Shown here: positions 3,001-40,977 of the stretch, one piece after another | Layout of the letters: each line of letters opens with the position of its first letter | How positions within the stretch are numbered: position 1 is the first letter of the stretch | Position numbers and translations under genes: made by a program | Source: Fodinibius roseus | Lineage (GTDB): Bacteria > Bacteroidota > Rhodothermia > Balneolales > Balneolaceae | Assembly (NCBI RefSeq): GCF_900129315.1 | Contig: NZ_FQUS01000002.1 | Span: 248,001-312,000, forward strand | Direction of reading: 5' to 3' | Length of the DNA stretch: 64,000 bases | The notes under the pieces: generated by a model | What the model saw: only the letters and a program-made list of their open reading frames with translations | The model's database searches: none | What the model was told of the DNA's origin: nothing

Positions 3001-3151
3001 ACGCTCACTGCGAATATTTGCAAGCGGGACCAATCTTTTTACGCTTTCTGAAGCCACGGACTGGGGACTGGATCCCGAATTTCCGTCAGGCCGGTTGAAC
3101 TATTACCCCCAGACCAAGCTATACTCCGTTGGGATCAATCTGGAATTCTAA
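2..3151 (+). CDS. SusC/RagA-type TonB-dependent receptor, 5' end cut by window
   Basis: Outer-membrane TonB-dependent transporter of the SusC/RagA family, which with its SusD partner imports oligosaccharides or other polymers. The reading frame is already open at base 2, and the residues before and after the first ATG (base 26) look like the middle of an STN domain (ISFTAKKRSVADIL), so the signal peptide and start lie outside the window. A carboxypeptidase-regulatory-like repeat follows (GTVYDAATNETLPGVNILVK), then the SusC signature around VLKDASATAIYGSRGANGV, a plug and a long beta-barrel ending in an aromatic-rich strand (YSVGINLEF). An STN domain usually means signalling to a FecR anti-sigma factor, so a sigma/anti-sigma pair probably lies just upstream. 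The SusD gene begins 5 bases after the stop. This is one of three SusC genes in the window and is AT-richer than the 12-19 kb block. Family certain; substrate unknown. Confidence 0.95.
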   Translation, partial: YGKYRIEAMPHRISFTAKKRSVADILRIISRETGLLFRQINSTVTVKTDDIRPVKREEPSDEMIEGTVYDAATNETLPGVNILVKGTTMGTSTDRNGAFEFTVPSLQDTLVASFVGYQTKEVPINGRTELNISLSSQAIVGDEMVVVGYGEQERSSLTSAVSDIDGDVISKKHVFDSRRALQGLAPGVTVIDRGGDPAAANNIQIRIRGNTTIGNNEPLVLVDGVEETDGFGDMNPNDIASITVLKDASATAIYGSRGANGVVLVTTKDAEEGVLEVEYNGYYGVQELNYKPEHLGLEKYMRLQNEAYSNRPGGQPFYTEEEIQEYINADDRLQYPLPNTMWDATFSPAPQQNHSLQFSGGSESINSLLSLSYSNQDGVIPNFSSDKYNVRLNTNFKVNDRIQLSSKITYRKNDSVRPFEDGGVYWRLWHSSQWTVPQYPDGTYGVSNQGHNPYMYAKESGTLKYYQDYLLGNATADVELLDNLTYSLQVSGQIDLRSHRNFKRAYDVHDYYDPSVIVKTVSPNQLTEFRDQTDRLTLRNLLNYKLELENHSISILGGYEQIQQNHERLTANREGFYNNELRNLDAGSQENWSNSGYDTDTRLRSVFGRLNYSYEDRYLLEANARYDGSSKFYGANNQYSFFPSFSAAWRISNEQFWEPFESVISNLKLRGSWGRTGNNSVDLYTFFPGLNNGTYSFGGGLVETYYQGSLTNQDLTWETTTQTDVGIDIAFWEGMLGMTFDYYEKRTDGILLTLPIPGTVGLGAAPQNAGIVDNKGWELTLSHRNILSEDFNYSISANLSDVRNEVIDLAGTGPYLGGRENVLVTKEGEEINALYGYKALGYFESEQEIQNHPTIVDKDATYPGDLKYADLNEDGVINGEDRTVIGSTLPKYTFGITTNLNYRNFDLGFFIQGVGQADAIPIGAAREGGNWEGFTLEIAGDYWTPENTDARFPRREKRSRKNQSYHSSWWVVDASYVKLKNLDVGYTVPADVLQKMGIDIRSLRIFASGTNLFTLSEATDWGLDPEFPSGRLNYYPQTKLYSVGINLEF

Positions 3152-3155
3152 AACT

Positions 3156-5168
3156 ATGATTAATATTATGATGAATCGAATCATTTTTTTCTCCCTGGTA
3201 GCACTGCTGCTAATTACAACAGCGTGCAGCGATAACTTCTTACAAACAGAACCTAATGACCGACTTTCGGACGGCTCTTTTTGGAATACCGAAGAGGATG
3301 CTGAGCTGGCTGCCAACGCTCTCTATGATCATCTTAAAACAGCCATCTTCAGATGGGATTCGATATCAGATATTGGCAAACCAAATACTCCTTCCAGTAG
3401 TGCCTCTCAAAATGTACAGGGATTACAGAGCTCAACCTCCGGCTATGGTCGGGGTATATGGGGCAATAGCTATGAGGCGATAAGGGCTGTTAATGATTAC
3501 CTGGTAAAAATCGATCGTGTTGAGAGTGATAATACAGCATTGTTAGACCGGTACCGGGCAGAAGCTCGTTTTATCAGAGCTTATCAATATTCGTATCTGT
3601 TGATGTTTTACGGGGATGTTCCGTTCATCACAGAACCGATTTCTATTAGCGAAGCCAAAGAATTGACCCGAACGGATAAAGCGGAGATCTGGGATTTTGT
3701 CAGTTCAGAATTGCAGGAAATTTCAGAAGTCCTGCCCGAAAGCTACAGCGATAATGACCAAGGCAGAATTACAAGAGGCGCGGCCCTGGCATGGAAGGCA
3801 CGGGCAATGCTCTGGGCCGGGCGTTATGAAGAAGCCGCTGCGGCCGCCCAGGCGGTGATGGATTCAGGAGTCTATGAACTGTATCCCAGCTATCAAGATC
3901 TGTTCAGCTATGAGGCCGAGCATAATAGCGGAGTCATTTTGAATAAGGAGTATATCAAAAACGAGGATTCCAATTCTCTGTTTGATATCTTAGCTCCTTT
4001 TTCTCAGAAATCTTCGGGTTCCACTTTTGTGCCTACCAAAAGTTTGGTAGACGCGTATGAGATGGCAAATGGTATGAAGATCGACGACCCTGGAAGCGGA
4101 TATGATCCCGCCAGTCCCTATGAAAACAGGGACCCGAGATTACGCTATTCCATGTTCGTATATGGAGACGTACTGCCGGATGGACAAATCTATGATCCGC
4201 GGCCCGGATTGGGAGGTCCGGATGACATCATGAGATCGTTTACAACCACAAGTACCGGGTTTAACATCAAAAAATATGTCAACGATCAGGATCTGGAAGA
4301 TCCGTCCAATGGCGGCATCAATATTATCCTGCAGCGTTATGCTGAAATACTACTGACCTACGCAGAGGCCAAGATAGAACTCGGAGAGATCGACCAGAGC
4401 GTGTATGATGCAATTAACGAAGTTCGCCAGCGACCGGATGTGGAGATGCCTGCTATACAATCCCCGAAAAGCCAGGAAGAGCTGCGGCAAATTGTCCGCC
4501 ACGAGCGTAAAGTAGAACTGGCATTTGAAGGGTTGCGCTATTTCGATATCCGCCGCTGGGAGATCGCCCCGGAGGTGATGAATGGACCGATCAGGGGTAT
4601 AACATCTGTGCAGAATACCTATGCCGACCGTTCGGATTGGGAGGTAATCGACTTTTCTTCAGATAATGAGCCTCGTGGAAATGTGGCATCGAATATAATT
4701 GATGATGATGTATCCACCATTTGGCATACGGCATGGGTAAATTCTAATCCTCCTCATCCTCATTATATAACCATCGATATGGGAGACCGGCAGGAAATCA
4801 TCGGATTCAGAATTCGAGGTCGCCAGGGATATAACGATGGCAATCCGCAGGATATTTATATTGAAGTAAGCAGTAATGGAAATACTTGGGAGCACAGGGA
4901 AGACTTTACATTAAATAATGTTGGGTCGAATACGGTATATACATCATCTGCTCGTCAAGCCCAATATTTCAGAATGACAGTTGAGTCCAGTTTTGGAGGA
5001 ACGACTCATACCCATGTGGCAGAAATAGAAGTGATTACCGCTCAGGCTACGGAAACCTGGGTGTATCCGGAATATGAGCGCAGCTTTGGTGAAAAAGATT
5101 ATTTCTTGCCCATTCCCGATGAGGAGCTGACGTTAAATCCGAATTTAGAACAAAATCCAGGGTATTAA
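3156..5168 (+). CDS. SusD/RagB-type lipoprotein with inserted F5/8C (discoidin) domain
   Basis: Surface glycan-binding lipoprotein that caps the SusC channel encoded directly upstream. The start at 3156 avoids overlap with SusC; ATGs at 3168 and 3171 are also possible and all give a signal peptide ending LLLITTAC with a lipidated Cys. The SusD fold is recognisable from the N-terminal helix region (RLSDGSFWNTEEDAELAANA), the TPR-like core (AEARFIRAYQYSYLL) and the C-terminal end (DYFLPIPDEELTLNPN). The protein is about 670 residues, against 513 and 529 for the other two SusDs here. The extra length is a block at about bases 4620-5050 with discoidin features (IIDDDVSTIWHTAW, HYITIDMGDRQEIIGF, DIYIEVSSNGNTW, AQYFRMTVES). 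It sits where the other two SusDs have a short loop before the final LPIP motif. The block probably adds a carbohydrate-binding site; that role is inferred. Confidence 0.93.
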   Translation: MINIMMNRIIFFSLVALLLITTACSDNFLQTEPNDRLSDGSFWNTEEDAELAANALYDHLKTAIFRWDSISDIGKPNTPSSSASQNVQGLQSSTSGYGRGIWGNSYEAIRAVNDYLVKIDRVESDNTALLDRYRAEARFIRAYQYSYLLMFYGDVPFITEPISISEAKELTRTDKAEIWDFVSSELQEISEVLPESYSDNDQGRITRGAALAWKARAMLWAGRYEEAAAAAQAVMDSGVYELYPSYQDLFSYEAEHNSGVILNKEYIKNEDSNSLFDILAPFSQKSSGSTFVPTKSLVDAYEMANGMKIDDPGSGYDPASPYENRDPRLRYSMFVYGDVLPDGQIYDPRPGLGGPDDIMRSFTTTSTGFNIKKYVNDQDLEDPSNGGINIILQRYAEILLTYAEAKIELGEIDQSVYDAINEVRQRPDVEMPAIQSPKSQEELRQIVRHERKVELAFEGLRYFDIRRWEIAPEVMNGPIRGITSVQNTYADRSDWEVIDFSSDNEPRGNVASNIIDDDVSTIWHTAWVNSNPPHPHYITIDMGDRQEIIGFRIRGRQGYNDGNPQDIYIEVSSNGNTWEHREDFTLNNVGSNTVYTSSARQAQYFRMTVESSFGGTTHTHVAEIEVITAQATETWVYPEYERSFGEKDYFLPIPDEELTLNPNLEQNPGY

Positions 5169-15969: not shown

Positions 15970-16086
15970 ATGAAGGCCGATAACAACATACTGAACAACC
16001 ATGAGTATGGAAAGAAGGCAGCAATACTATTCAACATCGGAAAAAAATGGAATAAGAGGTTCAAATTTTTATCGGGAATGGTATGA
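15970..16086 (+). CDS. Possible 38-residue protein overlapping the TctC-TctB gene
   Basis: A short frame begins at ATG 15970 (MKADNNILNN) and ends with TGA at 16084-16086, sharing an ATGA overlap with the start of the next gene at 16083. It is preceded by a strongly Shine-Dalgarno-like GGAGGGGAGAAG about 7 bases upstream, stronger than anything ahead of the neighbouring genes. The product is basic (many Lys), with no membrane segment and no family I recognise. It could be a translational-coupling leader for the transporter or a small protein in its own right. Chance occurrence is not excluded. Confidence 0.4.
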   Translation: MKADNNILNNHEYGKKAAILFNIGKKWNKRFKFLSGMV

Positions 16087-17459
16087 GATTGTTACCATTT
16101 AAGGTCAGGGTTATAAAATACGTCTGCGTTGGCAGGGCTCTCGGAACTCCTGTGGCTATATTATTAGTGGCAGTCGTACTGCTGCTGGGCTGTACCCGGG
16201 AAGCATCCTATCCGAACCGGCCCATCTCGCTGATATGTCCGTGGTCCGCGGGCGGAGGAACTGACCGGGTGGCCCGGCAGATCGCTTCCCAGCTGGAACG
16301 GGAGATGGAGGTGCCCGTGAATGTGATCAATGCCACCGGCGGGGGCGGAGTGACGGGGCATACCCGGGGGGCCCTGGAGCGCCCTGACGGATACAGCATG
16401 ACCATGATAACGGCGGAAATTAATATGCTGCACTGGCGGGGGCTGACAAATATCACCTACCGGGATTACCGGCCGCTGATGAAGGTCAACCAGGATAATG
16501 CCGCTATATTTGTCCGTGAGGAGGCACCCTGGGAAAACCTGGATGATTTGGAGCAGGCTATCCGGGAATCACCGGGTTCCCTGCAGGCTTCCGGTACGGC
16601 TTTCGGAGGCGTATGGCACGTGAGCCTGGCGGGCTGGCTGTTGGAAGCGGACCTCCCGGCCGATGCGGTTACCTGGATCTCCATAAACGGATCGGCCCCT
16701 TCCCTGCAGGAGCTGATGGCGGGCGGCGTGGATATGGTCGTGTGCAGCTTCCCGGAGGCCAGGTCGCTGTACGATGCGGGCGAAATCCGGAGCCTGGGAG
16801 TGATGGCTGAGGAGCGACTGGCCGACCAGCCGGATATCCCGACCTTCCGGGAGCAGGGATACGACTGGACCAGCCAAACCTGGCGGGGTCTGGCCGTACC
16901 GAACGAGGTCCCGGATGAGCGCTACCAGACGTTGCTGGAATCGGTAGAGTCTGTAATCACCAGCGAGGAATACCATCGTTTTCTGAAGAACTCCGGCTTT
17001 GGCAGCAGTGGCCAGTCCCCGGAGGCTTTCCTTCAGTTCCTGGAAACGGAGAATCAAACCTATGGCGAGATCTTTAACAGCCAAGCGTTTGCAGAGGTGG
17101 TTTCGCAGCGGTATGGCCCGATGTTCTTCCCCTCTATCATTTTAGCTTTGATGGGGCTTATTATTCTGACCTTACTGGTTACCGGCAGCCTGGGCCGCAG
17201 GGCGGAGGCCGACGATCTTAAAGGGATCGACTATACTCATATCCTGCTGTTGGTTGGGGCTGTTATTTTTTACCTGCTGTTTGCCGAGTACCTTGGATTT
17301 ATCCTCACAGCGGCGTTCATCCTGTTGCTGCTCATGTGGCAATTCCACGTTCGATGGTCAACTGCTCTGGTGGTCGTACTTGTCATCGTACCCCTGACTT
17401 ATCAACTGTTCGCAATCTACCTGCGGGTCCCCCTGCCCTGGGGCCTGCTGGGATGGTAA
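16083..17459 (+). CDS. Fused TctC (solute-binding) and TctB (small membrane) TTT transporter protein
   Basis: Component of a tripartite tricarboxylate-type transporter. An N-terminal lipoprotein-like signal (LLVAVVLLLGC) leads into a TctC/Bug-type solute-binding domain, about bases 16200-17120, with the family's start YPNRPISLICPWSAGGGTDRVAR and the GVTGHTRGALERPDGY region. After SQRYGPMFFPS the protein does not stop but enters four hydrophobic segments (about 17120-17456; IILALMGLIILTLLV, ILLLVGAVIFYLLFAEYLGF, AAFILLLLM, ALVVVLVIVPLTYQLFAIYL), which matches the small subunit TctB. TctB is normally a separate gene. The binding protein is therefore tethered to its own permease. TctA begins 16 bases downstream. 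Relatives carry di- and tricarboxylates and other organic acids; the cargo here is unknown. Confidence 0.88.
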   Translation: MRLLPFKVRVIKYVCVGRALGTPVAILLVAVVLLLGCTREASYPNRPISLICPWSAGGGTDRVARQIASQLEREMEVPVNVINATGGGGVTGHTRGALERPDGYSMTMITAEINMLHWRGLTNITYRDYRPLMKVNQDNAAIFVREEAPWENLDDLEQAIRESPGSLQASGTAFGGVWHVSLAGWLLEADLPADAVTWISINGSAPSLQELMAGGVDMVVCSFPEARSLYDAGEIRSLGVMAEERLADQPDIPTFREQGYDWTSQTWRGLAVPNEVPDERYQTLLESVESVITSEEYHRFLKNSGFGSSGQSPEAFLQFLETENQTYGEIFNSQAFAEVVSQRYGPMFFPSIILALMGLIILTLLVTGSLGRRAEADDLKGIDYTHILLLVGAVIFYLLFAEYLGFILTAAFILLLLMWQFHVRWSTALVVVLVIVPLTYQLFAIYLRVPLPWGLLGW

Positions 17460-17475
17460 TATTCATGGTCACATT

Positions 17476-19053
17476 ATGATAGAAGCACTTTTGGAAGCCC
17501 TGCAACTGATTGTTTTCTCCCCGTCCATCTGGATGGTGATTATCCTGTCTGCCATATACGGGATCTTTTTAGGGGCCATCCCCGGCTTGACGGCTACGAT
17601 GGCGGTGGCCTTGTTTGTCCCTATTACCTACTGGATGGATCCTGTCCCGGCGCTGGCGGGTATTGCAACCATGACGGCCTGTGCTATTTTTGCCGGCGAT
17701 ATTCCCACGACGCTCCTGCGTATCCCGGGCACTCCGGCTTCGGCCGCCTATGTGGATGATGCCTACGCGTTCACCCGGAAGGGCCAGTCGGAGAAGCCGC
17801 TGGGGATGGCGCTGACGGGCAGTGTGATGGGGGGACTGTTCGGGGCGGTTATCCTTATTCTGCTGGGGGGACAGCTGGCCAGGGTGGCATCGATGTTCAG
17901 CGTGGCGGAATATTTCTGGTTGTACCTGCTGGGGCTGAGTTCGGCGGTCGTGGTGGCGCGCGGACCTGTTCTGAAGTCGCTGCTGGGCCTGCTTATCGGG
18001 CTGTTCCTTGCCTTGGTGGGACTGAGCGCCGTGCATACCGAAGCGCGGTTCACCTTTGGGCTGCCCCAGCTGTACCAGGGTATCAGTTTTATACCGGCCA
18101 TGATCGGCTTGTTCGGGCTTTCCGAGGTACTGCGGAACGTCATGAATATTCGAAAAGATAGATCCATCCCGGATCCGGCCGCAGATACGAGGGAGGAAAC
18201 GGGAGCAGGCGGCTGGTTGAAGCGGAATATATGGAGGCCTTTTGTGTCCGTCTTCCGGTCTCCTGTGAAGCTGATCAGCGGGCGGAAAGGTGATTTTTTG
18301 CGTTCCGGCTTAATCGGTTCTGTGACGGGCATGCTGCCCGGTGCGGGAGCGGATATGGGATCCTGGATTTCCCTGGCGGCCTCCAAACGATCCAGCAAGC
18401 ATCCGGAGGAGTATGGCAAAGGATCGCTGGAAGGGATTGCCGACGCTACGACAGCCAACAGTTCGGCCCTGGCCGGCACATGGATCCCGGCGCTGGTTTT
18501 CGGGATACCGGGGGATTCAATAACCGCGATTGTGATCGGGGTGTTGCTCATGAAAAACCTAAACCCGGGTCCGGAGATCTTTGCAAGCCAGCCGGTGCTG
18601 GTATACAGCATCTACCTGTCCTTCATCATCGCTAATCTGGCCCTGCTGGTCGTGGGCTATGTCGCCATCAAAACAGGCCGCTTTGTCATTAAGATCCCGC
18701 AAAAAATATTGCTCCCTGTAATTCTGTTGTTTTGTATTATCGGTTCTTTTGCGATCCAGGGGAGTTACTTTGATGTCGGTATCATGCTTGGGATGGGACT
18801 GCTTGGTTTTGTCCTGGAACGCCGGAAAATCCCGCTGGGCCCGGTCGTGCTGGGTATTATTTTAGGGGGACCGCTGGAAGAGCGGTTCATACAGACCGTT
18901 ACCGGATCGGAGGGAATCCTCTGGCCGTTCTTCAACCGTCCGATTGCCGCCCTGCTGGGTGTCGGCTTTCTGCTGCTTTGGGGATGGACGATATGGCGAA
19001 ATAGGAAAGACAAGTCCGAAGCTACGGATGAAGATGTTTCAATGCAGTCATAG
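17476..19053 (+). CDS. tctA: TctA large membrane subunit of TTT transporter
   Basis: Inner-membrane channel-forming subunit of a tripartite tricarboxylate transporter. About 525 residues with roughly 10-12 hydrophobic segments and the family signatures GAIPGLTATMAVALFVPITY near the N terminus and MLPGAGADMGSWISLA in the second half, the pseudo-repeat characteristic of TctA. FAGDIPTTLLRIPGTPASAA is also typical. It follows the fused TctC-TctB gene by 16 bases, so the three functional parts are encoded by two genes. The cluster also contains exported deacetylases and a SelA-like lyase, so the cargo may be a carboxylate released by them; that link is inferred. Confidence 0.95.
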   Translation: MIEALLEALQLIVFSPSIWMVIILSAIYGIFLGAIPGLTATMAVALFVPITYWMDPVPALAGIATMTACAIFAGDIPTTLLRIPGTPASAAYVDDAYAFTRKGQSEKPLGMALTGSVMGGLFGAVILILLGGQLARVASMFSVAEYFWLYLLGLSSAVVVARGPVLKSLLGLLIGLFLALVGLSAVHTEARFTFGLPQLYQGISFIPAMIGLFGLSEVLRNVMNIRKDRSIPDPAADTREETGAGGWLKRNIWRPFVSVFRSPVKLISGRKGDFLRSGLIGSVTGMLPGAGADMGSWISLAASKRSSKHPEEYGKGSLEGIADATTANSSALAGTWIPALVFGIPGDSITAIVIGVLLMKNLNPGPEIFASQPVLVYSIYLSFIIANLALLVVGYVAIKTGRFVIKIPQKILLPVILLFCIIGSFAIQGSYFDVGIMLGMGLLGFVLERRKIPLGPVVLGIILGGPLEERFIQTVTGSEGILWPFFNRPIAALLGVGFLLLWGWTIWRNRKDKSEATDEDVSMQS

Positions 19054-29002: not shown

Positions 29003-32000
29003 ATGATGAAAAAAAAGGATACACGTACATGTACATATCTATATAAGTGGATGACCAGACTTGCCTTGGCAGGTATGTTATTTGGTTTGCCGGCGTTGCC
29101 GGTGAAGGGACAAAATACAGGGGAAACGGTGACGGGGACCGTAGTGGATGCCGAGAATAATGAAACCCTTCCGGGGGTCAATATTTTGGTCAAGGGAACG
29201 ACCACCGGAACGTCGACGGGAGGGGACGGTACTTTTGAGCTTTCGGTTCCCTCCTTGGAGGATACCCTTGTTGCCTCGTTCATCGGCTATCAGACGCAGG
29301 AAATTCCCATAAACGGCCGGACCGAAATAGATATAGCACTGGTCGGTCAGGCGATTATGGGTGAAGAAATGGTGGTTGTAGGCTTCGGTACTCAGCGAAG
29401 GGAAGACGTAACGGGCGCTGTCAGTTCGGTTTCAGCCCGTGATTTCGAGGAGCGTCCGATGACCAACACCGAACTGGGAATGCAGGGATTGAGTCCCGGC
29501 TTAAGCATACAGTACGAGGGGGGACAACCCGGGGAAGAAAATGCCGTGGCGCGGATCCGTGGGACCGGTACGCTGAATAACCCGAACCCGCTGGTGCTTG
29601 TGGACGGGGTGGAACAGTCGCTTTCTACGGTGGAATCTTCTAATATTGAATCGATCAGTGTATTGAAAGATGCGGCTTCTGCCGCTATTTATGGATCGCG
29701 GGCGGCAAACGGAGTCATATTGGTTACCACCAAACGAGGTGCCGAATCAGGGGTTACCGTAAGTTACAACGCCCACGTCGGCGTGCAGGATCTGCTTTTT
29801 TTTCCGCCGGGGGCCTCTAAGGAAGATTGGATGATGCTGAGGAACGAAGCAGATGCAGCAACAGGAGCAGATCCGATTTTTACCGAGGAATATCAGAAAA
29901 ATGTTCTTGCGGGAACGAACCCGCTGGAGTATCCTTTTGCCGACTTTGAGGGTGGCGTTTTCCGCGACTATTCATTGGAGCATAGTAATGCTCTCTCTGT
30001 ATCCACGGGGGGCGAGACGGGAAGATTATATGCGGCTGTCAGTCATGATGATACGGATGGAATCATGCGAAATTTTAACAGCAAAAAAACGTCACTGCGG
30101 TTGAACAGCGATCTGTTTGTGACGGATGATTTAACGGTTAAAGCTAATATGCTTTACAGGAACCGGGATGTCAGTGGTCCGGGATTCAGGCCCCAGCGGA
30201 TTATGCAGGCCCTTTTGCATATGAATCGCGATATGATTATGAGTTATCCGGACGGCCGGGAGGCAACCGGTGATCTGATCGGGGGCACATGGAATCCGTT
30301 TGTCATGGGAAATTCCGGTGAGACAAACAGGGCGAGCAACGATATCGTTGCTACAGCCGGAGTTGAATACGAGATCAATGAGATGTTTTCACTTGAAGGA
30401 GATCTTACGCTGAACCGGACCAGTACTGAAGAGAATATTTTCCGGGATGATAAAAGCAACATGATCCATCCCCTCACTGGTGAAACAGTCGCTGCCAGCA
30501 GCTGGTTTTCCACAAACACCTTGAATGAAGGTCGGTATAATCGCAATGAACTGAGTCAGAGGGCATTGCTGCGGTATACGGATGATTTCGGGGATCACAG
30601 TTTGAATGGGATGGTTGGGTATGAAGAAATTTATACCCAGGCTACACAGGCATCTGCAGCGCGTTCCGATTTTTTCAATGATGATCTTCGATCCCTGAAT
30701 GCAGGTGATTCCGGTACGGAACTGACGTGTGGACAATTTAATGATCCGGGCGAATTTACCAATGGTTGTTTTAATGACGAGTGGAGAATACGATCTTTCT
30801 TTGGACGTATGAACTATTCATATGAGGACCGCTATTCGTTCCAGGCTAATGTGCGATACGACGGATCATCGAGATTTGCGGAGGGCAACAGGTGGGGCTT
30901 CTTTCCATCGTTCTCCGGCGGCTGGAGAATCTCCAGCGAAGAGTTTATGCAGGATGTGGATTGGTTAAGCAACCTGAGAATTCGAGCTTCATGGGGACAA
31001 TTAGGTAACGAGCGGCAGGGTTCCAATGAGAGAACCGGCCTTTATTCCTATTTGAATACGTATAACCTGGGACTTTCCTACCAGTTCGACGACGAGGTCG
31101 TACCGGCTGCTGCCGTCACTTCGGCCGGTAACACGGATATCGCCTGGGAAACCACGACGATGACGAATATTGGTCTGGACTTGGGGTTGATGGATGACAG
31201 AATAGAGGTCATAGGCGAGTATTTCTGGAACTATACCAGCGATATTCTGCTGCAGCTGCCCATTCCTGCTACGGTGGGTAAAAGTGCTCCCTACCAGAAT
31301 GCAGCGGATGTTTCCAATAACGGGTGGGAGCTGGCGGTTAATTACAACAGCGCTGCCGGCTCCGGGGAGCTGGAGTATTCCGTCGGCATAAATTTCTCGG
31401 ATGTCGTTAATACGATCGAGGATCTTAATGATCAGGGTCCTTTCTACCCCGATGGATTTACTGTTTGGACTGAAGGCGAGTCCATTAATTCATTGCGTGG
31501 ATATGCTTCCCCGGGAATTTACCGCACGCAGGAAGATCTTGACAATTATCCCACTACCTACAGCCCGGAAGTGACTATCGGAGATGTTATTTATGAAGAT
31601 CTGGATGGAGACGGTGCGCTCAGTACCGCATTATATCCTGACGGCGACCATATTATTATAGCCAATGAAGACCCAAGGTATGAGTTTGGTGTGAATTTCG
31701 ACGCTTCGTATCGCGGGTTCGATTTCAAAATGTTCTGGCAGGGGGTCTTACAGCAGTACCATATGCTGGACGGTGCCATCATCGAAGGTCCGAACAATCA
31801 AAATTATATTGCCCAAAAGTACGTCGAGGAACGATACCATCCTGAAAAGAATCCCGGTGGTAAGTGGCCGAGAGTAATGACAGGTTCGCAAAACTGGAAC
31901 AGGCGGGGATCTGAATTCTGGCTGGAGGATACCAAATATGCACGATTAAAAAATATTCAGCTCGGCTATTCCATCCCCCAGCAATTCATACAGCGATTCC

Positions 32001-32134
32001 GGATTTATGTCTCGGGGACAAACCTGGTTACCATAACTCCCACCGACCTTATGGACCCGGAAGTCCCGAGGGGACGAAATCAGTTTTATCCTCATACGAA
32101 ATCAGTCTCGCTGGGTGTCAATGTCACGTTTTAA
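29003..32134 (+). CDS. SusC/RagA-type TonB-dependent receptor without STN domain
   Basis: Outer-membrane importer, 1043 residues. Signal peptide (MTRLALAGMLFGLPALPVKGQ) is followed at once by the carboxypeptidase-like repeat (TGTVVDAENNETLPGVNILV), so this receptor lacks the STN domain seen in the other two and is not expected to signal to a FecR protein. Plug signature VLKDAASAAIYGSRAANGV; last strand VSLGVNVTF. ATG 29003 and 29006 are adjacent; AAAAAAGG lies upstream. The partner SusD gene follows. The CarboxypepD region is very similar to that of the first SusC (GTVxDAxxNETLPGVNILVKGTT), showing descent from a common ancestor. Confidence 0.95.
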   Translation: MMKKKDTRTCTYLYKWMTRLALAGMLFGLPALPVKGQNTGETVTGTVVDAENNETLPGVNILVKGTTTGTSTGGDGTFELSVPSLEDTLVASFIGYQTQEIPINGRTEIDIALVGQAIMGEEMVVVGFGTQRREDVTGAVSSVSARDFEERPMTNTELGMQGLSPGLSIQYEGGQPGEENAVARIRGTGTLNNPNPLVLVDGVEQSLSTVESSNIESISVLKDAASAAIYGSRAANGVILVTTKRGAESGVTVSYNAHVGVQDLLFFPPGASKEDWMMLRNEADAATGADPIFTEEYQKNVLAGTNPLEYPFADFEGGVFRDYSLEHSNALSVSTGGETGRLYAAVSHDDTDGIMRNFNSKKTSLRLNSDLFVTDDLTVKANMLYRNRDVSGPGFRPQRIMQALLHMNRDMIMSYPDGREATGDLIGGTWNPFVMGNSGETNRASNDIVATAGVEYEINEMFSLEGDLTLNRTSTEENIFRDDKSNMIHPLTGETVAASSWFSTNTLNEGRYNRNELSQRALLRYTDDFGDHSLNGMVGYEEIYTQATQASAARSDFFNDDLRSLNAGDSGTELTCGQFNDPGEFTNGCFNDEWRIRSFFGRMNYSYEDRYSFQANVRYDGSSRFAEGNRWGFFPSFSGGWRISSEEFMQDVDWLSNLRIRASWGQLGNERQGSNERTGLYSYLNTYNLGLSYQFDDEVVPAAAVTSAGNTDIAWETTTMTNIGLDLGLMDDRIEVIGEYFWNYTSDILLQLPIPATVGKSAPYQNAADVSNNGWELAVNYNSAAGSGELEYSVGINFSDVVNTIEDLNDQGPFYPDGFTVWTEGESINSLRGYASPGIYRTQEDLDNYPTTYSPEVTIGDVIYEDLDGDGALSTALYPDGDHIIIANEDPRYEFGVNFDASYRGFDFKMFWQGVLQQYHMLDGAIIEGPNNQNYIAQKYVEERYHPEKNPGGKWPRVMTGSQNWNRRGSEFWLEDTKYARLKNIQLGYSIPQQFIQRFRIYVSGTNLVTITPTDLMDPEVPRGRNQFYPHTKSVSLGVNVTF

Positions 32135-32167
32135 TTTTTTAATGTTTAAATGTAAATGGAAATTGTT

Positions 32168-33697
32168 ATGAAAAAGCTTATAATATTAAGTATAATGATG
32201 GTTGCCGTTATTCTCACTGGATGTGATGGCCTGGATGTCACTCCGGCCGATACGGTAACAGAAGGTTCGTACTGGCAGCGGGCCAGTGATGCGGAGATTG
32301 CCGTCAATGCTGTTTATGCAGAGATGGACGGCCGCACCTTTGGTCTGGATAACCGGACCGATATAGCCTATTCTCAACTTACTCCGCTTGTCCCGTCAAA
32401 CGGTACGGTGGAAGGCTATTGGAACAGGTATTACAGGGGTATTTTCAAAGCCAATGATGTGATTACCAACATCGGGGAGGTCGAGTTTGGTAATACGGAT
32501 CTGCTGGAGAGGGTGGAGGCGGAGGCGCGGTTTCTCCGGGCCTATTACTATACCCAGCTTACCAGTTTATGGGGAGCGGTCCCTTTAATTTTGGAACCCA
32601 TTGACATCAATGATCACGTAGCCCGGACCGATCGTGATGAGATTGTTGATTTTATTATTGACGAGTTGGATGCGATCATCACCACGGAGGCTCTGCCCGT
32701 GAGTTACGGCAGCGGGAATGTCGGCCGGGCAACCCATGGCGCTGCCGAGTCGCTGAAGGCGAGAGCTGCGTTGCGCAACGAACGGTGGGAGATCGCCCGC
32801 GATGCGGCGCAATCGGTCATAGAAAGTGGTGTTTATGACCTCTATCCCAACTATGAAGAGCTGTTCCATTATGAAGGTCAGAACTCTTCAGAGGTAATTT
32901 TTGACAGGCAGTATACTTCTACCGGGGACAGCTATGATGCTTTTGGGATCTCTGCCGCATCCATTGGAGGCGGCTCGGGCATAGAGCCTGCCCATGGCCT
33001 CTATCGGAAGTACCGGCTTGATGAAGGGGAATATGATATCAGTGAATTTAACAGCCGTGAAGAGGCCTATGAAAACATGGATCCCCGCTGGAATTATTCG
33101 GTTTATTATACCGGACAGCCCATCGGTAACAGCACCTACGACTCCAGTCCCGACAGTCCGACTCCTGATCGTGTTAATGTCACAGAGAGAGCCACCGAAC
33201 TTGGGTACAATATGAAGAAGTATATTGACTATGAAGATGATATAGACAGCCCTTCGACGGGATCCATTAACATGATTCACATCCGGTATGCCGATATCCT
33301 GCTGATGTATGCTGAAGCAAAAGTTCAGCTCGGCGAGATTGATCAATCAGTTTACGATGCAATTAATGAAGTGCGTGAACGTCCCACAGTTGAACTGGAC
33401 CCCATCAATGCAACAACACATCCGGATGCAGAGAGCCTGATGGAGTACCTGATGGATGAGCGCGCCCGGGAATTTGCACTGGAAGGATTGCGACTCTTTG
33501 ACATCATGCGATGGGGAATCGGTGAACAGGTAGCCGGGCCCGTTCGCGGTGCTCATTTTGAAAATTCGGAAGGAGAGGTTTATTTACAGGACGTCGGGTA
33601 TTCGAGAAACTTCAGCGAACATCACCATCTGTGGCCCATACCGCAGGCCGAAATTAATTCCAATGATTCTATTTCTGAAAATAATCCCGGATACTAA
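32168..33697 (+). CDS. SusD/RagB-type lipoprotein
   Basis: Surface binding lipoprotein for the SusC gene just upstream. Start at 32168 (MKKLIILSIMMVAVILTGC) gives an ideal lipoprotein signal; an in-frame ATG at 32156 would add four residues. SusD hallmarks: ADTVTEGSYWQRASDAEIAVNAVY, AEARFLRAYYYTQLTSLWGAVPLI, LEGLRLFDIMRWG and final HHLWPIPQAEINSND. The conserved ending NNPGY is present. About 509 residues. A strong hairpin follows at 33745. Confidence 0.95.
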   Translation: MKKLIILSIMMVAVILTGCDGLDVTPADTVTEGSYWQRASDAEIAVNAVYAEMDGRTFGLDNRTDIAYSQLTPLVPSNGTVEGYWNRYYRGIFKANDVITNIGEVEFGNTDLLERVEAEARFLRAYYYTQLTSLWGAVPLILEPIDINDHVARTDRDEIVDFIIDELDAIITTEALPVSYGSGNVGRATHGAAESLKARAALRNERWEIARDAAQSVIESGVYDLYPNYEELFHYEGQNSSEVIFDRQYTSTGDSYDAFGISAASIGGGSGIEPAHGLYRKYRLDEGEYDISEFNSREEAYENMDPRWNYSVYYTGQPIGNSTYDSSPDSPTPDRVNVTERATELGYNMKKYIDYEDDIDSPSTGSINMIHIRYADILLMYAEAKVQLGEIDQSVYDAINEVRERPTVELDPINATTHPDAESLMEYLMDERAREFALEGLRLFDIMRWGIGEQVAGPVRGAHFENSEGEVYLQDVGYSRNFSEHHHLWPIPQAEINSNDSISENNPGY

Positions 33698-34651: not shown

Positions 34652-35905
34652 ATGAACAGGAAAAAATTTATAAAAGGTGCGCTTGGCACACTTGGTGCTC
34701 TTACTATTGTGCCGCGACACGTGTTGGGCGGCAGAGGCTATACGGCACCGAGTGACCAGCTTACCAAAGCGGTTATCGGGGTCGGTATGATGGGCAAAGG
34801 GCACCTGAATTATCCGGGAGCCCGGCTTGTGGCGGTCTGTGACGTGGATGAGAATCATCTGCAGGAGGCCCTGAATCTGACGGACTCAAATGTCAGGGGC
34901 TATTCCGATTACCGGGAAGTCCTGCAGCAGGATGATATAGATATCGTGCATATCGCCACGCCACCGCACTGGCACGGCATTATGGCGGCGGATGCGGCGG
35001 AAGCGGGCAAGGATGTCTGGTGCGAAAAGCCGATGACACGAACAATCGGCGAAGGTGAAAAGGTAGTGGAAGCGGTGCAGCGGAACGGCAGTATCTTTCG
35101 GCTGAATACCTGGTTCCGGTTTGAAGATGTTTTCTATGGCATGGGGACGCCGGTCAAGCCGATCAAGAAGCTGGTAGAGAACGGTGTCTTCGGGTGGCCG
35201 CTCAAGGTGACCATCAGCGAGACGACCGGCTTCAACTGGAAGTTTAACTGGAGCGGGCTGACGAACCTGGAGCCGCAGTGGATTCCCGAGGCACTGGATT
35301 ATGACATGTGGCTGGGTCCGGCGCCCCGAAAACCGTATAACGAACACCGCACGCATGTGACCTTCCGGGGCTACTGGGATTACGACGGCGGGGGACTGGG
35401 CGACATGGGCCAGCACTACCTTGACCCGGTTCAGTATATTTTAAGCAAGGATCATACCAGTCCCATTAGCGTAGAGGCGGACGCCCCCCAACAGCACCCC
35501 GATGCCGTCAGCTCCTGGCGAAGAATTGAGATGAAGTATGAGGACGGCTGCCGGATTATCCTCGATGGCGAGAACAAGGATACCGATGCCGCCTTCATCG
35601 AGGGACCGGAGGGCAAGCTGTACCGGGGATTTCAATCCGATATACCCAATATCCGTAAACTGGCGGACAGCCTGCCCGATCCGGATCCACAGGTGACGGA
35701 CTTTAGCAAGGCGGTCAGAAACAGGCAGACGTTTGCTTTGAATGAAGCCAATGGCCACCGTTCCTGCACACTGGTAAACCTGGGGAAAGCTGCATTGCGA
35801 CTGGGAAGAAAACTGGAATTTGACCCTGAAACCCAGCGTTTTATCGGCGACGAGGCCGCTAATCGCTTGATTAACCAGCCGATGCGCGGGCAGTGGCATA
35901 TATAG
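34652..35905 (+). CDS. Exported Gfo/Idh/MocA-type oxidoreductase
   Basis: NAD(P)-dependent sugar oxidoreductase of the Gfo/Idh/MocA family. The start at 34652 (MNRKKFIKGALGTLGALTIV) gives a Tat-like leader; ATGs at 34628 and 34637 are in frame and possible. Rossmann motif AVIGVGMMGKGHL, acidic residue in AVCDVDENH, the family's EKP catalytic signature in DVWCEKPMTRTIGE, and the C-terminal substrate-side region GGGLGDMGQHYLDPVQYIL. Exported members of this family use a tightly bound cofactor. Next to DUF1080 proteins they are believed to oxidise a sugar at C3 so that the glycosidic bond can be broken by elimination. Of 417 residues, normal. Confidence 0.9.
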   Translation: MNRKKFIKGALGTLGALTIVPRHVLGGRGYTAPSDQLTKAVIGVGMMGKGHLNYPGARLVAVCDVDENHLQEALNLTDSNVRGYSDYREVLQQDDIDIVHIATPPHWHGIMAADAAEAGKDVWCEKPMTRTIGEGEKVVEAVQRNGSIFRLNTWFRFEDVFYGMGTPVKPIKKLVENGVFGWPLKVTISETTGFNWKFNWSGLTNLEPQWIPEALDYDMWLGPAPRKPYNEHRTHVTFRGYWDYDGGGLGDMGQHYLDPVQYILSKDHTSPISVEADAPQQHPDAVSSWRRIEMKYEDGCRIILDGENKDTDAAFIEGPEGKLYRGFQSDIPNIRKLADSLPDPDPQVTDFSKAVRNRQTFALNEANGHRSCTLVNLGKAALRLGRKLEFDPETQRFIGDEAANRLINQPMRGQWHI

Positions 35906-36035: not shown

Positions 36036-39000
36036 ATGAGTAATTTTATGCGTTTTAGACACTTTACATTGGTCGCCTTTGCTTTGGTTCTCGTTTCCTG
36101 CTCTTCCACCAGGGAAATGCCTCAGCAACAACAAACCTATGAACCCGCATCTTCTACAGCTAAAGTAACGAGCCGCATTACTGATCTCCCGGCCGTTGAT
36201 CAGGCTGAAAGGGAATGGATTTTCAGCGAGCTGGTGGCGGCAGGACCTTCGGGAATAAATGCACTGACGGAAATGCTGGTAGCCCCGGGCAGCGGTGACG
36301 ATACGCAGGCCCGATTCGCCGTCAACGGAATATCAAAATATGTTTCTCGCGCCGGTGCGGAATCCGAACGGGCCATGGTTGAGAAAGTCCTCATTGATGA
36401 GTTACAGTCCCATCGCCATCCCCTGGTAAAGGTTTTTTTGATGGAGCAGCTGGAGCTGATCGGAAGTAACGAGTCCATCCCGGCGTTGCAGTCATTCATC
36501 GGAGACGACCGCCTGAACGAATCGGCCGTGCATGCGCTCCGGGCGATCAATACAAACCGTGCCCGCCAGGTACTGGCGGAGGGAATATCGGCTACGGAGG
36601 GAGAGAAGCGTATTGCCGTGATCAAAGCACTGGGGGACATGAAGGCGTCGGATGTTACGGGATCCCTGCTACCCCTGGCTACTTCCGATGACCCGATGAC
36701 CCGGAAGGTGGTCCTGTACGCATTAGCCCGGAGTGGGGAGCCGGAAGCCGGGGAGGTGCTGTCTTCGGCACTGGATACCGGTGAAGGATACCAGCAAGAA
36801 GCGGCCCGAAGGTATTATCTGTTGTATGCAGGGCGACTGGCGGAAGAGGGGAATACAAGCCAGAGTGCCGACATCAGCCGCAATATTCTATCCGGTGATT
36901 TTTCATCGGAAGCCCGAAGCTCGGCCTTATCGATACTGGTCGGCCACGAAGGTGAAGAAGCGCTCGATGATCTGGTTGAAGCCGCCGAAAGTTCAGATGC
37001 ACGGCTTCGTTCAACGGCTCTTAGCCTGCTCGGGCAACATGCGGGCTGGCAAGTACCGGAGCGCTGGACTACAGCTTCGGCATTGGATGAGCTGTCCCCC
37101 GCTGTACAGGCAGATATTATTGATATGTTGGGGCGCAGCGGGCGGGCTTCCGTTTCGACGCTGCGGCCTTTTCTGGAAAGCAATGAGCTTTCGGTTCGGA
37201 TAGCTGCTGCTCGGGCAACGGCCGCTGCCGGGGGAGAAGAAGCGCTGCCTGTTTTACTGGAGGCATTAACCGAAGCTGAGCAGCCTGAAGAAATAGCCGC
37301 CCTGAAAAATGCCCTGCTGCGGCTTCCCACGGAGTCCCTCGTTTCAGAAGCAGCAGATCTGCTGCCGTCGCCCTCGGGATCCGCAAGGATCGCTCTTATC
37401 GAAATATTGGCGGAACGGCGGGCGGACCAGCATCTTGATACCGTGCTGGATCAGCTTGACGGTTCGGATGCACCGGTGCGATTGGCCGTATTTCAGTCCC
37501 TCAGGGGGTTGGCCGATCCCGACGACCTGCCTCAATTGGCCCGCCTGTTGTCGGAAGCTCAAAATGAAAATGAGCGCTCGGCTCTGCAGGAAGCGGTATT
37601 AGCGGTTTCGGAGGAAATCCCGGAACCGGAAAAACGTGCCCGGGCGGTCCTGCAGGCTCTGGAGGAAGCCCCGAATCGCCAGAAACCGTATCTGCTGGAA
37701 CTCCTTCCCGAGATGGGGGGTGAGAAAGCCCTTGAGGCGGTGGTTGCAGCGTCCCGAAGCTCTAACGATTCTATTCAACAGGCGGCCTTGCGGGCCCTCT
37801 CCGACTGGCCGGATGCTTTGGCACTGTCCCCGTTGGCAGAGGCTTTCCAAAACGCACCGGAATCCGGACGAAGTGACATTCTGGAAGGCTATATCCGCCT
37901 GGTACAGCAGTCAAAATACAGCGCAGCAGACAAAGTTCAGTTTCTGAAGGATATGTTAGATGAGTCCACCTCCGGTGAAGAAAAGCTGCGGGTGCTGAGC
38001 GGATTTGCGGCGCTGGAGTCCCCGGAAGCGCTGAGAGCGGTTGCGGCTCATTTTAATGACGAAAATGTGGCTGTGCGGGAACGCTCACTCCGATCGGTAG
38101 CGCAAATACTTTCGGCCTCGACTGAAGATACCGGCCGGGAACTTGCACTGATAGCAGCGACTACAAGCCCGGAACATAAAGAGAAAATCGAACAGTATAT
38201 ACAGGAGCTGGAATCCGCCGGTGATGAAACGGACATTTTTACCACGTTATTTAACGGGGAGGATCTGACCGGCTGGGTTGGTGATATGGAATCGTATGCC
38301 GTCAGCAATGGACAGATTATCAGTAAGGATGGGGCTACAGGCAATCTGTTTACCGAGGATGAATACAGTAACTTTATTCTGAAGTTCGATTTTAAACTGA
38401 CCGCCGGAGCCAATAACGGGCTGGCCATACGTGCACCGCTGGACAGCCACCCGGCGTATGAGGCCATGGAGCTTCAGATCATTGACAACACGGCTGAAAA
38501 ATATAAGGATCTGGAACCCTACCAGTTCCACGGGTCGATCTACGGGGTAGCGCCTGCCCAGCGGGGTCATTTGAACCCGGTCGGAGAGTGGAACACCCAG
38601 GAAGTGATTGCCGACGGCTCCCACATTACGGTCAGGGTAAATGGTCAAACCATCACCGATGTGGATCTTGCCGATATTGATACGTCCAACACCATGGATG
38701 GACGAGATCATCCCGGCTTGCTTAATGAAAGCGGTCATATCGGCTTTTTGGGACACGGCGACGAGGTTGCCTTCAGGGACATCAGAATACAGGATCTCGA
38801 CGTCTACTACCCGGACTACAGCTCGGATTCCGGGAACGGAGACGGGATGAACGAGCCGCCGGAAGGTTTTAAGGCTCTCTTCAACGGCGAGAATCTGGAA
38901 GGCTGGAAAGGAGTGGTAGGCAATCCCAAAACGCGGGCGGAAATGACAGAAGAAGAACTGGCTCAGAAGCAGAAAGAGGCAAATACCGAGATGCGAGAGC

Positions 39001-40013
39001 ACTGGTCAGTGCGGGATGGCGTGCTCTCTTTCGACGGCGAAGGCCACAGTGTGGCAACGGACAAGAAGTACAGGGATTTTGAGATGATGCTCGACTGGAA
39101 AATTGAGCCGGGCGGCGACAGCGGCGTATATCTCCGGGAAACGCCCCAGGTTCAGATTTGGGATATTACCGAATGGCCCCAGGGATCCGGCGGATTGTAT
39201 AATAACAAGGAACATCCCAGTAAGCCTTTGGTCCCGGCCGACAACGCCATTGGTGAGTGGAATAACATGCACATTCGGATGGTGGGTGAGAAAGTGACCG
39301 TTCACCTGAATAGCGAACTGGTTGTGGATAATGTAGTATTGGAGAATTTCTGGGACCGGGATGAGCCGGTTTATTCGGAGGGCGCTATTGATTTGCAGGC
39401 GCATAATACGCCCCTCTATTTCAAAAATATTTTTATCCGTGAAATACCACGCAAAGTATCTCTTTTTAACGGCGAGAATCTTTCCGGCTGGGAACGCGTG
39501 GGTGAGGATACCGGGCAATGGCATGCCGATGACGGGCTCCTTTATACGGAAGGCGGCGGGGGATGGCTGTCAACGACTGAAACCTACGACAATTTTAAGT
39601 TGGAATTTGAGTATCGCCTCCCGGAAGGGGGCAACAGCGGAGTGTTTCTGCGCGCCCCCCGCGAGGGCAATCCCGCCTATGAAGGAATGGAAATACAGCT
39701 GCTGGACGACAATGCCGAGCAGTATGCGGACCTGCAGCCGTGGCAATATACCGGCAGTATCTATGATGTCAAGGCGCCCTCCGGGGAAGCAAGTAAAAAA
39801 GCCGGAGAGTGGCAGAAAATGGAAATTACAGCGGATGGTTCTGAAGTGAAGGTGCGGCTGAATGGTGAGACGGTTGTAAGTACCGACCTGGTTAATTATA
39901 TGGATCGGGTGGAGGAGCATCCCGGTCTGAAACGCAGGTCAGGATATATCGGCCTCCAAAACCATAACTCGCGGGTTGAATTTCGAAATATTAATATTAC
40001 AGAGATCAAGTAA
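36036..40013 (+). CDS. Giant lipoprotein: HEAT-repeat domain plus three DUF1080 (3-keto-disaccharide hydrolase) domains
   Basis: About 1325 residues. ATG 36036 (or 36048, MRFRHFTLVAFALVLVSC) gives a lipoprotein signal with lipobox VLVSC; the frame extends upstream to 35907, but that part has no signal. After the lipid Cys come some 700 residues of alpha-helical HEAT-like repeats (for example HPLVKVFLMEQLELIGSNES and AVHALRAINTNRARQVL). Then follow three DUF1080 domains: bases about 38231-38805 (TLFNGEDLTGWVG), 38865-39450 (ALFNGENLEGWKG) and 39453-40010 (SLFNGENLSGWER). Each repeats the family pattern NSGVFLR / GEW / RNI. DUF1080 proteins act on 3-keto-glycosides or bind sugars. Domains 1 and 3 are more alike than either is to 2, which has an extra insertion (about KTRAEMTEEELAQKQKEAN). 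The downstream gene encodes a fourth, single DUF1080 domain. Confidence 0.9.
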   Translation: MSNFMRFRHFTLVAFALVLVSCSSTREMPQQQQTYEPASSTAKVTSRITDLPAVDQAEREWIFSELVAAGPSGINALTEMLVAPGSGDDTQARFAVNGISKYVSRAGAESERAMVEKVLIDELQSHRHPLVKVFLMEQLELIGSNESIPALQSFIGDDRLNESAVHALRAINTNRARQVLAEGISATEGEKRIAVIKALGDMKASDVTGSLLPLATSDDPMTRKVVLYALARSGEPEAGEVLSSALDTGEGYQQEAARRYYLLYAGRLAEEGNTSQSADISRNILSGDFSSEARSSALSILVGHEGEEALDDLVEAAESSDARLRSTALSLLGQHAGWQVPERWTTASALDELSPAVQADIIDMLGRSGRASVSTLRPFLESNELSVRIAAARATAAAGGEEALPVLLEALTEAEQPEEIAALKNALLRLPTESLVSEAADLLPSPSGSARIALIEILAERRADQHLDTVLDQLDGSDAPVRLAVFQSLRGLADPDDLPQLARLLSEAQNENERSALQEAVLAVSEEIPEPEKRARAVLQALEEAPNRQKPYLLELLPEMGGEKALEAVVAASRSSNDSIQQAALRALSDWPDALALSPLAEAFQNAPESGRSDILEGYIRLVQQSKYSAADKVQFLKDMLDESTSGEEKLRVLSGFAALESPEALRAVAAHFNDENVAVRERSLRSVAQILSASTEDTGRELALIAATTSPEHKEKIEQYIQELESAGDETDIFTTLFNGEDLTGWVGDMESYAVSNGQIISKDGATGNLFTEDEYSNFILKFDFKLTAGANNGLAIRAPLDSHPAYEAMELQIIDNTAEKYKDLEPYQFHGSIYGVAPAQRGHLNPVGEWNTQEVIADGSHITVRVNGQTITDVDLADIDTSNTMDGRDHPGLLNESGHIGFLGHGDEVAFRDIRIQDLDVYYPDYSSDSGNGDGMNEPPEGFKALFNGENLEGWKGVVGNPKTRAEMTEEELAQKQKEANTEMREHWSVRDGVLSFDGEGHSVATDKKYRDFEMMLDWKIEPGGDSGVYLRETPQVQIWDITEWPQGSGGLYNNKEHPSKPLVPADNAIGEWNNMHIRMVGEKVTVHLNSELVVDNVVLENFWDRDEPVYSEGAIDLQAHNTPLYFKNIFIREIPRKVSLFNGENLSGWERVGEDTGQWHADDGLLYTEGGGGWLSTTETYDNFKLEFEYRLPEGGNSGVFLRAPREGNPAYEGMEIQLLDDNAEQYADLQPWQYTGSIYDVKAPSGEASKKAGEWQKMEITADGSEVKVRLNGETVVSTDLVNYMDRVEEHPGLKRRSGYIGLQNHNSRVEFRNINITEIK

Positions 40014-40032: not shown

Positions 40033-40977
40033 ATGTTATCACTTAAAAAGCTGAGTTTTATATCGTTTGTGTTATTTGTAACAGCTGGCGTAACAGCCCT
40101 GCAGGCTCAGATTCCGGGGAGTGAGGCCGCGGGTCGGTGGGATATTACCATTGCGACAGCCAGCGGCGAACAACCCGCATGGCTGGAGATCGAAACCTCG
40201 GGCGTCAGTGCCCTGGTCGGCCGGTACGTGGGCCCCTCGGGAAGTGCACGTCCCATTTCGCAAATTACCTATTCCGGGGACGAGGAAACCTATGAGTTCA
40301 GTATTCCCCCGCAGTGGAGCAAGGGAGCGGATCTGCATGTTGAATTCACCCTTGAGGGGGAACAACTAAAGGGCCGGACTACGGGTTCGGGAGGCAATAC
40401 CCTGGAATGGACCGGCGTGCGGGCCCCCGCCTTGGAAGGCGAAGAGGAGCCGGAATGGGGGGAGCCAGTACCGCTGCTGGATAAGGAGCTGTCGAAATGG
40501 ATGATCCCGGAAAACAGCCAGTTTGAGATGGAAAATGGCGTTATGGTCAATCAAAAATCAGGGGGCAACCTGATTACCAAAGACGCGTTCGATGATTTTA
40601 AACTTCACGTGGAGTTCCGTTATCCGGAAGGAAGCAACAGCGGTATTTACCTGAGGGGACGTTATGAAGTACAGATTATTGACAGTTACGGCATGGAGCC
40701 CGATAGTCATCTGCTGGGGGGCATCTATGGCTTTATTGACCCCAGCGTGAATGCGGCGAAAGAAGCGGGTGAGTGGCAGAGCTATGATATCACACTGACC
40801 GGACGAATGGTTACGGTTGAGCTGAATGGGAGAGAAGTGATCTGTGACCGTCCCATTCCCGGTATTACGGGCGGCGCGCTCGATAGCAGGGAGGGAACGC
40901 CGGGACCCCTTATGATTCAGGGCGACCACGGGCCGGTGGAGTTTCGCAATATCACTATCACTCCGGCCGTAGACTGA
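40033..40977 (+). CDS. Secreted single DUF1080 (3-keto-disaccharide hydrolase-like) protein
   Basis: Start at ATG 40033 (MLSLKKLSFISFVLFVTAG) with CGGAGG about 12 bases upstream and a signal peptide ending LQAQ. An upstream frame from 39976 overlaps the giant gene and lacks a signal. The N-terminal part (about bases 40120-40430) is a small beta domain (RWDITIATASGEQPAWLEIE) of unknown role; the DUF1080 domain occupies about 40470-40970 (LDKELSKWMI, EGSNSGIYLRGRYEVQIID, PVEFRNITI). It follows the giant lipoprotein by 19 bases and is probably co-transcribed and co-acting on the same 3-keto glycosides with the Gfo/Idh/MocA enzyme. Family clear; catalytic versus binding role not determined. Confidence 0.9.
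   Translation: MLSLKKLSFISFVLFVTAGVTALQAQIPGSEAAGRWDITIATASGEQPAWLEIETSGVSALVGRYVGPSGSARPISQITYSGDEETYEFSIPPQWSKGADLHVEFTLEGEQLKGRTTGSGGNTLEWTGVRAPALEGEEEPEWGEPVPLLDKELSKWMIPENSQFEMENGVMVNQKSGGNLITKDAFDDFKLHVEFRYPEGSNSGIYLRGRYEVQIIDSYGMEPDSHLLGGIYGFIDPSVNAAKEAGEWQSYDITLTGRMVTVELNGREVICDRPIPGITGGALDSREGTPGPLMIQGDHGPVEFRNITITPAVD

Follow-up and report, generated by a model that had tools for sequence, protein, structure and literature searches.

Among described systems, the gene set BT2156-58 of Bacteroides thetaiotaomicron combines an epimerase-type protein, a DUF1080 protein (Pfam family PF06439), and a Gfo oxidoreductase (excerpted text of PMC10434189). The PF06439 proteins BT2157 and THTE_1561 have been characterized as enzymes, according to the accessible portion of PMC9007349. 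In Agrobacterium tumefaciens, the OGE, HYD, and Gfo proteins carry out β-elimination of C3-oxidized glycosides, then hydration, then Gfo reduction, the last two steps being preliminary assignments in the available part of PMC10628242, and a four-step logic of oxidation, elimination, hydration, and reduction is described for other enzymes in the same excerpt and in that of PMC13273386. Here, we describe a gene in a 64,000-nucleotide stretch of Fodinibius roseus DNA (contig NZ_FQUS01000002.1, positions 248,001 to 312,000; "the window") that encodes a predicted lipoprotein in which a HEAT α-solenoid is followed by three DUF1080 domains. The gene lies directly downstream of a gene for a Gfo/Idh/MocA oxidoreductase, and we assign a probability of about 0.5 to the reading in which the HEAT-DUF1080 protein forms the scaffold part of a recurring envelope unit of two genes for the cleavage of 3-keto-glycosides.

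The upstream oxidoreductase, which the preliminary description of the window had missed, is the most constant partner of the HEAT proteins. Using a profile built from 11 rows, with membership taken at E ≤ 1e-100, the clade of this oxidoreductase was found in three phyla: that of the window (15 of 395 genomes), that of a KSB1 relative (20 of 82), and that of a Hydrogenedentes relative (39 of 68, two fragments among the 39). The neighborhoods of 55 members were read, covering every member in the first two phyla and 20 of the 39 in the third, and a HEAT gene adjoins the oxidoreductase gene in 12 (plus two weak cases) of 15, in 19 of 20, and in 17 of 20. Over the three phyla, 48 of the 55 loci have a clear HEAT neighbor, two have a weak one, and five have none, several of the adjoining HEAT genes being short or cut by contig ends. 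The two genes share a strand; of 35 gaps measured, 31 span -86 to 162 bp and the other four 443 to 1042 bp. In the reverse direction, a HEAT protein is present (weakly in two cases) in 13 of 20 stretches around matches to the profile of the third DUF1080 domain type (type C, below), and the oxidoreductase gene directly precedes it in 13 of 13; the other seven stretches have neither HEAT nor oxidoreductase. The window genome contains a single clade member, scoring 855 bits, and its next-best oxidoreductase scores 236 bits.

The DUF1080 complement of the pair is variable. In the window's phylum and in the KSB1 phylum, every adjoining HEAT gene that is uncut by a contig end has a DUF1080 domain, with a weak case in L174. 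Of the 17 Hydrogenedentes HEAT partners, four bear a type-A module, 12 show no DUF1080 domain, whichever frame of the retrieved stretch is read, and the remaining one is truncated at a contig end; the HEAT repeats of DUF1080-free partners were confirmed by Pfam in five of five tested, narrowly in L207 (32.2 against 27.7 bits). Because the pairing is constant and such DUF1080-free partners exist, the dehydrogenase and the solenoid appear to be the constant unit, and the DUF1080 domains a variable cargo of zero to three modules. No description of the oxidoreductase-HEAT pair was found in the open-licence literature searched, in which some DUF1080 papers may yet mention the fusion, and the recurring combination of dehydrogenase and solenoid, with its zero to three DUF1080 modules, is apparently undescribed. 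In four loci of the KSB1 phylum (L159, L165, L167, and L171), an open reading frame (ORF) of about 400 residues upstream of the pair resembles, by eye only, a major facilitator superfamily transporter.

An R[RK]x[FL] motif lies within the first 100 residues of all 37 tabulated oxidoreductases, with RR in 30 and RK in the window protein. An EKP lysine and the motif GDMGQH, which we take to be typical of Gfo enzymes, are invariant in 11 of 11 aligned sequences. By far the top NCBIfam match of the window oxidoreductase is the glycoside 3-dehydrogenase BT_2158 (NF058561), at 162.7 bits, a score far below the equivalog cut-off of 750. The nearest solved chains are the dehydrogenases 8tdf and 8tdh; the DgpA enzymes, presumably glycoside 3-dehydrogenases, are more distant.

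The reading frame of the HEAT-DUF1080 gene is open from 35907 to the stop at 40013 and gives 1325 residues from the ATG at 36036, and alignment with a 69% identical same-genus relative points to the ATG at 36048 as the likelier true start. The domain content is largely as the preliminary description had it. The N-terminal signal ends in a lipobox (LVSC, Cys22), three stretches match PF06439 (447.2 bits summed versus a Pfam cut-off of 26.8; 152.4, 145.6, and 173.2 bits for the single domains in a genome-wide search), and six stretches match HEAT_2 (153.5 bits versus a Pfam cut-off of 27.7), scores that are far above chance. The helical region, put earlier at about 700 residues, is a solenoid of about 660 residues, with HEAT homology over residues 43-701 by a family hidden Markov model (HMM). 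In an AlphaFold2 model computed from a two-row alignment of the window protein and one homologue, residues 31-734 fold into 42 helices and no strands, with a mean predicted local distance difference test score (pLDDT) of 86.1 and a predicted template modeling score (pTM) of 0.58, and the HEAT_2 score and the predicted helices together describe the antiparallel helix pairs of a HEAT solenoid. A Foldseek search with this model returns HEAT proteins such as karyopherins and the PP2A scaffold, matches that indicate a generic HEAT fold and nothing more. Membrane anchoring, which had been proposed for the window protein, is supported there by the lipobox and is not a constant property of the family: of 36 listed proteins, 11, the window's among them, have a strict lipobox, and three further proteins are lipobox-like by eye, so that the lipid anchor varies with lineage.

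The three DUF1080 domains, described earlier as non-identical, belong to three separate clades that recur in other HEAT-DUF1080 proteins. In a tree of 74 domains made by a quick method, with Shimodaira-Hasegawa-like approximate likelihood ratio test (SH-aLRT) support only, no bootstrap, and long branches that make fine placement unsure, domain 1 falls in type A with the C-terminal modules of HEAT-B-A proteins (SH-aLRT 99), domain 2 in type B with the first modules of two-module proteins and a pair of free-standing kin (97), and domain 3 in type C (95). An origin of domain 1 as a copy of domain 3, suggested by a first tree in which domain 1 stands beside the domain 3 clade (94/86), was dropped because the larger tree groups domain 1 with HEAT-B-A modules from other classes of the phylum. 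Fusions beyond HEAT proteins were also observed. A type-C DUF1080 domain in Hydrogenedentes is joined to an N-terminal SGNH/GDSL hydrolase-like part, named from sequence only (L050:7230-8621), and type-A domains are fused to amidohydrolase domains in L108:5809-9582, which also has PD40 propeller repeats, and in L100:4442-6259.

Module classes were assigned to 37 listed proteins with three type HMMs, which were built partly from the same domains, so that the class of a domain used in training is not an independent result. The arrangement B-C is found in 13 proteins and B-A in seven, with L104, which has a weak HEAT match, as a further B-A case. Type C alone occurs in seven (one cut at its 5' end), type B alone in two (one cut by a contig end and L161, which has an intact stop), and type A after a weak HEAT match in one (L109); L174 has a poor module match, and three proteins are cut before any module. 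A-B-C is seen in two only, the window protein and one genus mate, and the window holds the fullest module set observed. Among near relatives, the complete architecture is rare: a long HEAT homologue is present in four of 57 other genomes, including one of 11 same-genus genomes. The same-genus homologue is 69% identical over its full length and has the same two neighbor genes; the remaining three, of which one is truncated by a contig end, consist of HEAT and one DUF1080 domain. The HEAT region is alignable across 669-693 positions in 29 of 30 relatives and across 536 in the truncated L042, and in a HEAT tree the window protein and its genus mate cluster with six HEAT-C proteins of their order (support 100, quick method). 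A likely history is that, from a HEAT-B-C ancestor, A was gained in the window lineage and B was lost in its relatives.

The insertion noted earlier in domain 2 is real and is modeled as a helix, within a three-domain AlphaFold2 model of low overall confidence (three-row alignment, pLDDT 64.7, pTM 0.48); these values are too low for the packing of the domains to be read from it. Type B also lacks two loops found in A and C. At two family-conserved columns, A and C have N and E in 33 of 33 sequences and B has D and Q in 24 of 24; the domain 2 insertion is a feature of its clade that goes with an acid/amide exchange, not a plain loss. In 58 other rows, some of them identical, the same columns read N/E in 45, D/Q in seven, N/Q in three, D/E in two, and R/N in one, so that acid and amide tend to swap positions jointly, in what may be few independent D/Q events, as the B rows descend from a common source, the seven D/Q rows include two near relatives of B, and the other five are less surely aligned. 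Gln1308 is replaced by Leu in type A (11 of 11) and is otherwise conserved, and all type-A (11 of 11) and type-B (24 of 24) modules retain the His two residues after it, as do 20 of 22 type-C modules, the other two carrying Tyr. At these conserved polar columns, whose catalytic role is putative, the window modules read N, E, and LxH in A, D, Q, and QxH in B, and N, E, and QxH in C. The comparison of active sites that had been suggested thus finds the family signature kept in A and C, with Leu for Gln1308 in A, and exchanged in B; loss of these residues from all three domains, named in the preliminary description as the sign of a purely structural protein, was not found as far as conserved columns tell. 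Three putative active-site positions of the family are given in a figure of PMC9765024. H275 of a B. thetaiotaomicron lyase, from the excerpt of PMC13273386, may correspond to the QxH histidine but was not used, because the match in numbering is unconfirmed and because Tyr replaces this histidine in two of 22 type-C modules.

Structural comparisons place the window domains among solved DUF1080 structures, which are the best Foldseek matches of the three-domain model, with E values of 1e-12 to 1e-13 for the titled enzymes. The chains 8rr2 and 9fbe, titled 3-keto-glycoside eliminase/hydratase, and 8tda and 8v31, titled 3-keto-2-hydroxy-glucal hydratase, have the same PF06439 fold and differ from the window protein in that they are single-domain proteins of 243-256 residues without HEAT repeats and with about 25% identity to the model. 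The best match, 4jqt (BT3469), contains two DUF1080 stretches in one chain and differs in its length of 431 residues and in the absence of a HEAT solenoid. Similar to BT2156-BT2158, the window has a Gfo/Idh/MocA oxidoreductase beside a DUF1080 protein, and 3-keto chemistry is reported for the B. thetaiotaomicron DUF1080 member (accessible portion of PMC9007349). The B. thetaiotaomicron set differs in its stand-alone DUF1080 protein and its epimerase-type gene, whereas the window and its relatives have a HEAT fusion with zero to three DUF1080 copies and an oxidoreductase of a distant clade; no epimerase-type match was found among the window genes scanned with Pfam (part of the ORFs), where oxidoreductase and DUF1080 genes are adjacent. 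The A. tumefaciens system is of the same chemical type as that proposed for the window unit, but OGE is a Mn2+ TIM-barrel enzyme with a fold unrelated to DUF1080 (available part of PMC10628242).

The titles of the DUF1080 structures and the distant resemblance to a glycoside 3-dehydrogenase make a scaffolded oxidation-elimination-hydration role likely, and by analogy with these systems we regard a 3-keto-glycoside role of the pair as fairly probable. The oxidoreductase would be exported folded with its nicotinamide cofactor by the twin-arginine translocation (Tat) route and would oxidize C3 of a glycoside, and it may itself later return the 3-keto-sugar to its reduced state, completing a redox-neutral cycle. 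Less firmly, the solenoid would dock the oxidoreductase and keep the modules close, so that labile 3-keto intermediates are handed over locally, and the differing module types could widen the range of bonds or aglycones. Docking of the oxidoreductase by the solenoid, to which the constancy of the gene pair points, has in our estimate slightly less than an even chance. More tentative is the picture of an undescribed envelope metabolon, in which a Tat-exported glycoside 3-dehydrogenase would dock on the HEAT solenoid as its dedicated, scaffoldin-like partner for oxidative glycan cleavage, and the solenoid would carry interchangeable eliminase/hydratase modules A, B, and C on its C terminus according to lineage. 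The multi-step machine of the preliminary description is plausible, although several steps would not require three domains, given that relatives with a single domain already bear the title eliminase/hydratase. Elimination by one type and hydration by another was not adopted for the same reason and because HEAT-C and HEAT-A proteins exist without a B module.

Several observations weigh against a two-gene cleavage unit with the solenoid as scaffold. The existence of HEAT-C and HEAT-A proteins is one; in addition, the pair is patchy, the HEAT homologue being present in only the four of 57 surveyed genomes, five of 55 oxidoreductases have no HEAT neighbor (G170, G463, L194, L195, and L198), and the oxidoreductase is a relative of BT_2158, not a member of its equivalog family. 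Solenoid identity falls to 17% with few conserved polar positions, which leaves no clear docking surface. The 12 DUF1080-free Hydrogenedentes partners imply that the pair need not include cleavage, and an endo-glucanase activity reported for one DUF1080 protein (partial text of PMC10881899) makes plain hydrolysis possible. By Foldseek, DUF1080 also resembles the binding module CBM66, and its fold is common to CBM66 and lectin-type domains, as would be expected if the modules were mainly carbohydrate-binding and tethered the oxidoreductase to a glycan that other enzymes cleave. The F5/8 type C module between HEAT and DUF1080 in L191:1656-4922 (one of the four Hydrogenedentes partners with a type-A module), the commonness of tandem different modules in binding proteins, and the many DUF1080-free Hydrogenedentes partners are consistent with such tethering, but we consider it unlikely because the PF06439 proteins that have been characterized (BT2157 and THTE_1561, in the accessible portion of PMC9007349) or titled (8rr2, 9fbe, 8tda, and 8v31) are enzymes and because all three types largely retain the conserved polar columns.

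A division in which A and C are enzymes and B is a specialized partner, non-catalytic or of different specificity, would fit the order of modules, B preceding A or C in all 20 clear two-module HEAT proteins and in the weak-HEAT L104, as well as the helical insertion, the missing loops, and the D/Q columns of B. It seems somewhat unlikely, as the two columns of B still hold a carboxylate and an amide, with their places exchanged, D/Q also occurs in seven of 58 other rows (two close kin of B and five less surely aligned), and HEAT-B stands alone with an intact stop once (L161). The DUF1080-free partners, common beside the Hydrogenedentes oxidoreductase (12 of 17), would also suit a solenoid that serves the redox cycle or folding of the oxidoreductase, as chaperone or electron-transfer partner, with DUF1080 as an incidental passenger. 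We judge this decidedly unlikely, given the DUF1080 domains of every uncut HEAT neighbor in the other two phyla (weak in L174) and the co-occurrence of DUF1080 and Gfo genes in BT2156-58 (excerpt of PMC10434189). The PF06439 family is abundant in the window genome (31 matches, alongside 30 Gfo-type matches), and such neighbors are not rare, which might suggest an ordinary multidomain glycosidase with decorative repeats beside an oxidoreductase by chance. Adjacency of one clade in 50 of 55 loci from three phyla (48 clear, two weak) and the wide score margin that separates the clade member of the window genome from its other Gfo copies make chance very improbable.

Features of the pair and its surroundings in the window
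Feature	Coordinates	Strand	Basis or remark
HEAT-DUF1080(A)-DUF1080(B)-DUF1080(C) protein, 1325 aa	36036..40013	+	start perhaps 36048
Signal peptide and lipobox LVSC, ending Cys22	36036..36101	+	sequence
HEAT α-solenoid, residues 43-701 (~660 residues)	36162..38138	+	Pfam, family HMM, AlphaFold2
DUF1080 domain 1, type A, residues about 731-922	38226..38801	+	Pfam, tree, type HMMs
DUF1080 domain 2, type B, residues about 941-1138, D/Q replacing N/E	38856..39449	+	Pfam, tree, HMMs, alignment
Insertion helix of domain 2, residues 972-989	38949..39002	+	AlphaFold2 model; insertion common to KSB1 relative L049
DUF1080 domain 3, type C, residues 1141-1325	39456..40010	+	Pfam, tree, type HMMs
Separate DUF1080 protein, domain "D4", ATG 40033	40033..40977	+	Pfam; also downstream in same-genus relative
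Gfo/Idh/MocA oxidoreductase, Tat-like N terminus MNRKKFIK, usual partner	34652..35905	+	Pfam PF01408 and PF19051
SusC-type receptor (29003-32134) and SusD (32156-33697)	29003..33697	+	upstream of pair

The fourth DUF1080 domain, D4, is encoded immediately downstream, as stated earlier, in a separate single-domain gene, and belongs to yet another clade than domains 1-3. The approximately 140 residues that precede it (40033-40452) have no Pfam match, and same-clade stand-alone relatives (L021, L025, L029, and L051) have N-terminal parts of similar length. The same-genus relative has no SusC/SusD genes beside the pair and instead has sulfatase-like ORFs, named from sequence only. Elsewhere in the window, a SusD protein (3129-5168) that carries an F5/8 type C domain at its C terminus is encoded between a SusC-type receptor and a PhoD phosphatase, with two sulfatases after, and one ORF (16083-17459) next to TctA (17476-19053) matches both TctC and TctB, an apparent TctC-TctB fusion. 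Elsewhere in the genome, two loci on different contigs (G000:C30:57331-57870 and G000:C50:15623-16162) give equal scores for a 204-residue DUF1080 protein, reflecting a recent duplication or assembly redundancy.

The cleavage of 3-keto-glycosides is a recently recognized route of glycan breakdown, and its enzymes have so far been known, within the literature read, as separate proteins. The pair, which recurs across three phyla while its DUF1080 count varies, would provide a concrete case for the handling of labile 3-keto intermediates in the cell envelope, with three natural module types available for comparison.

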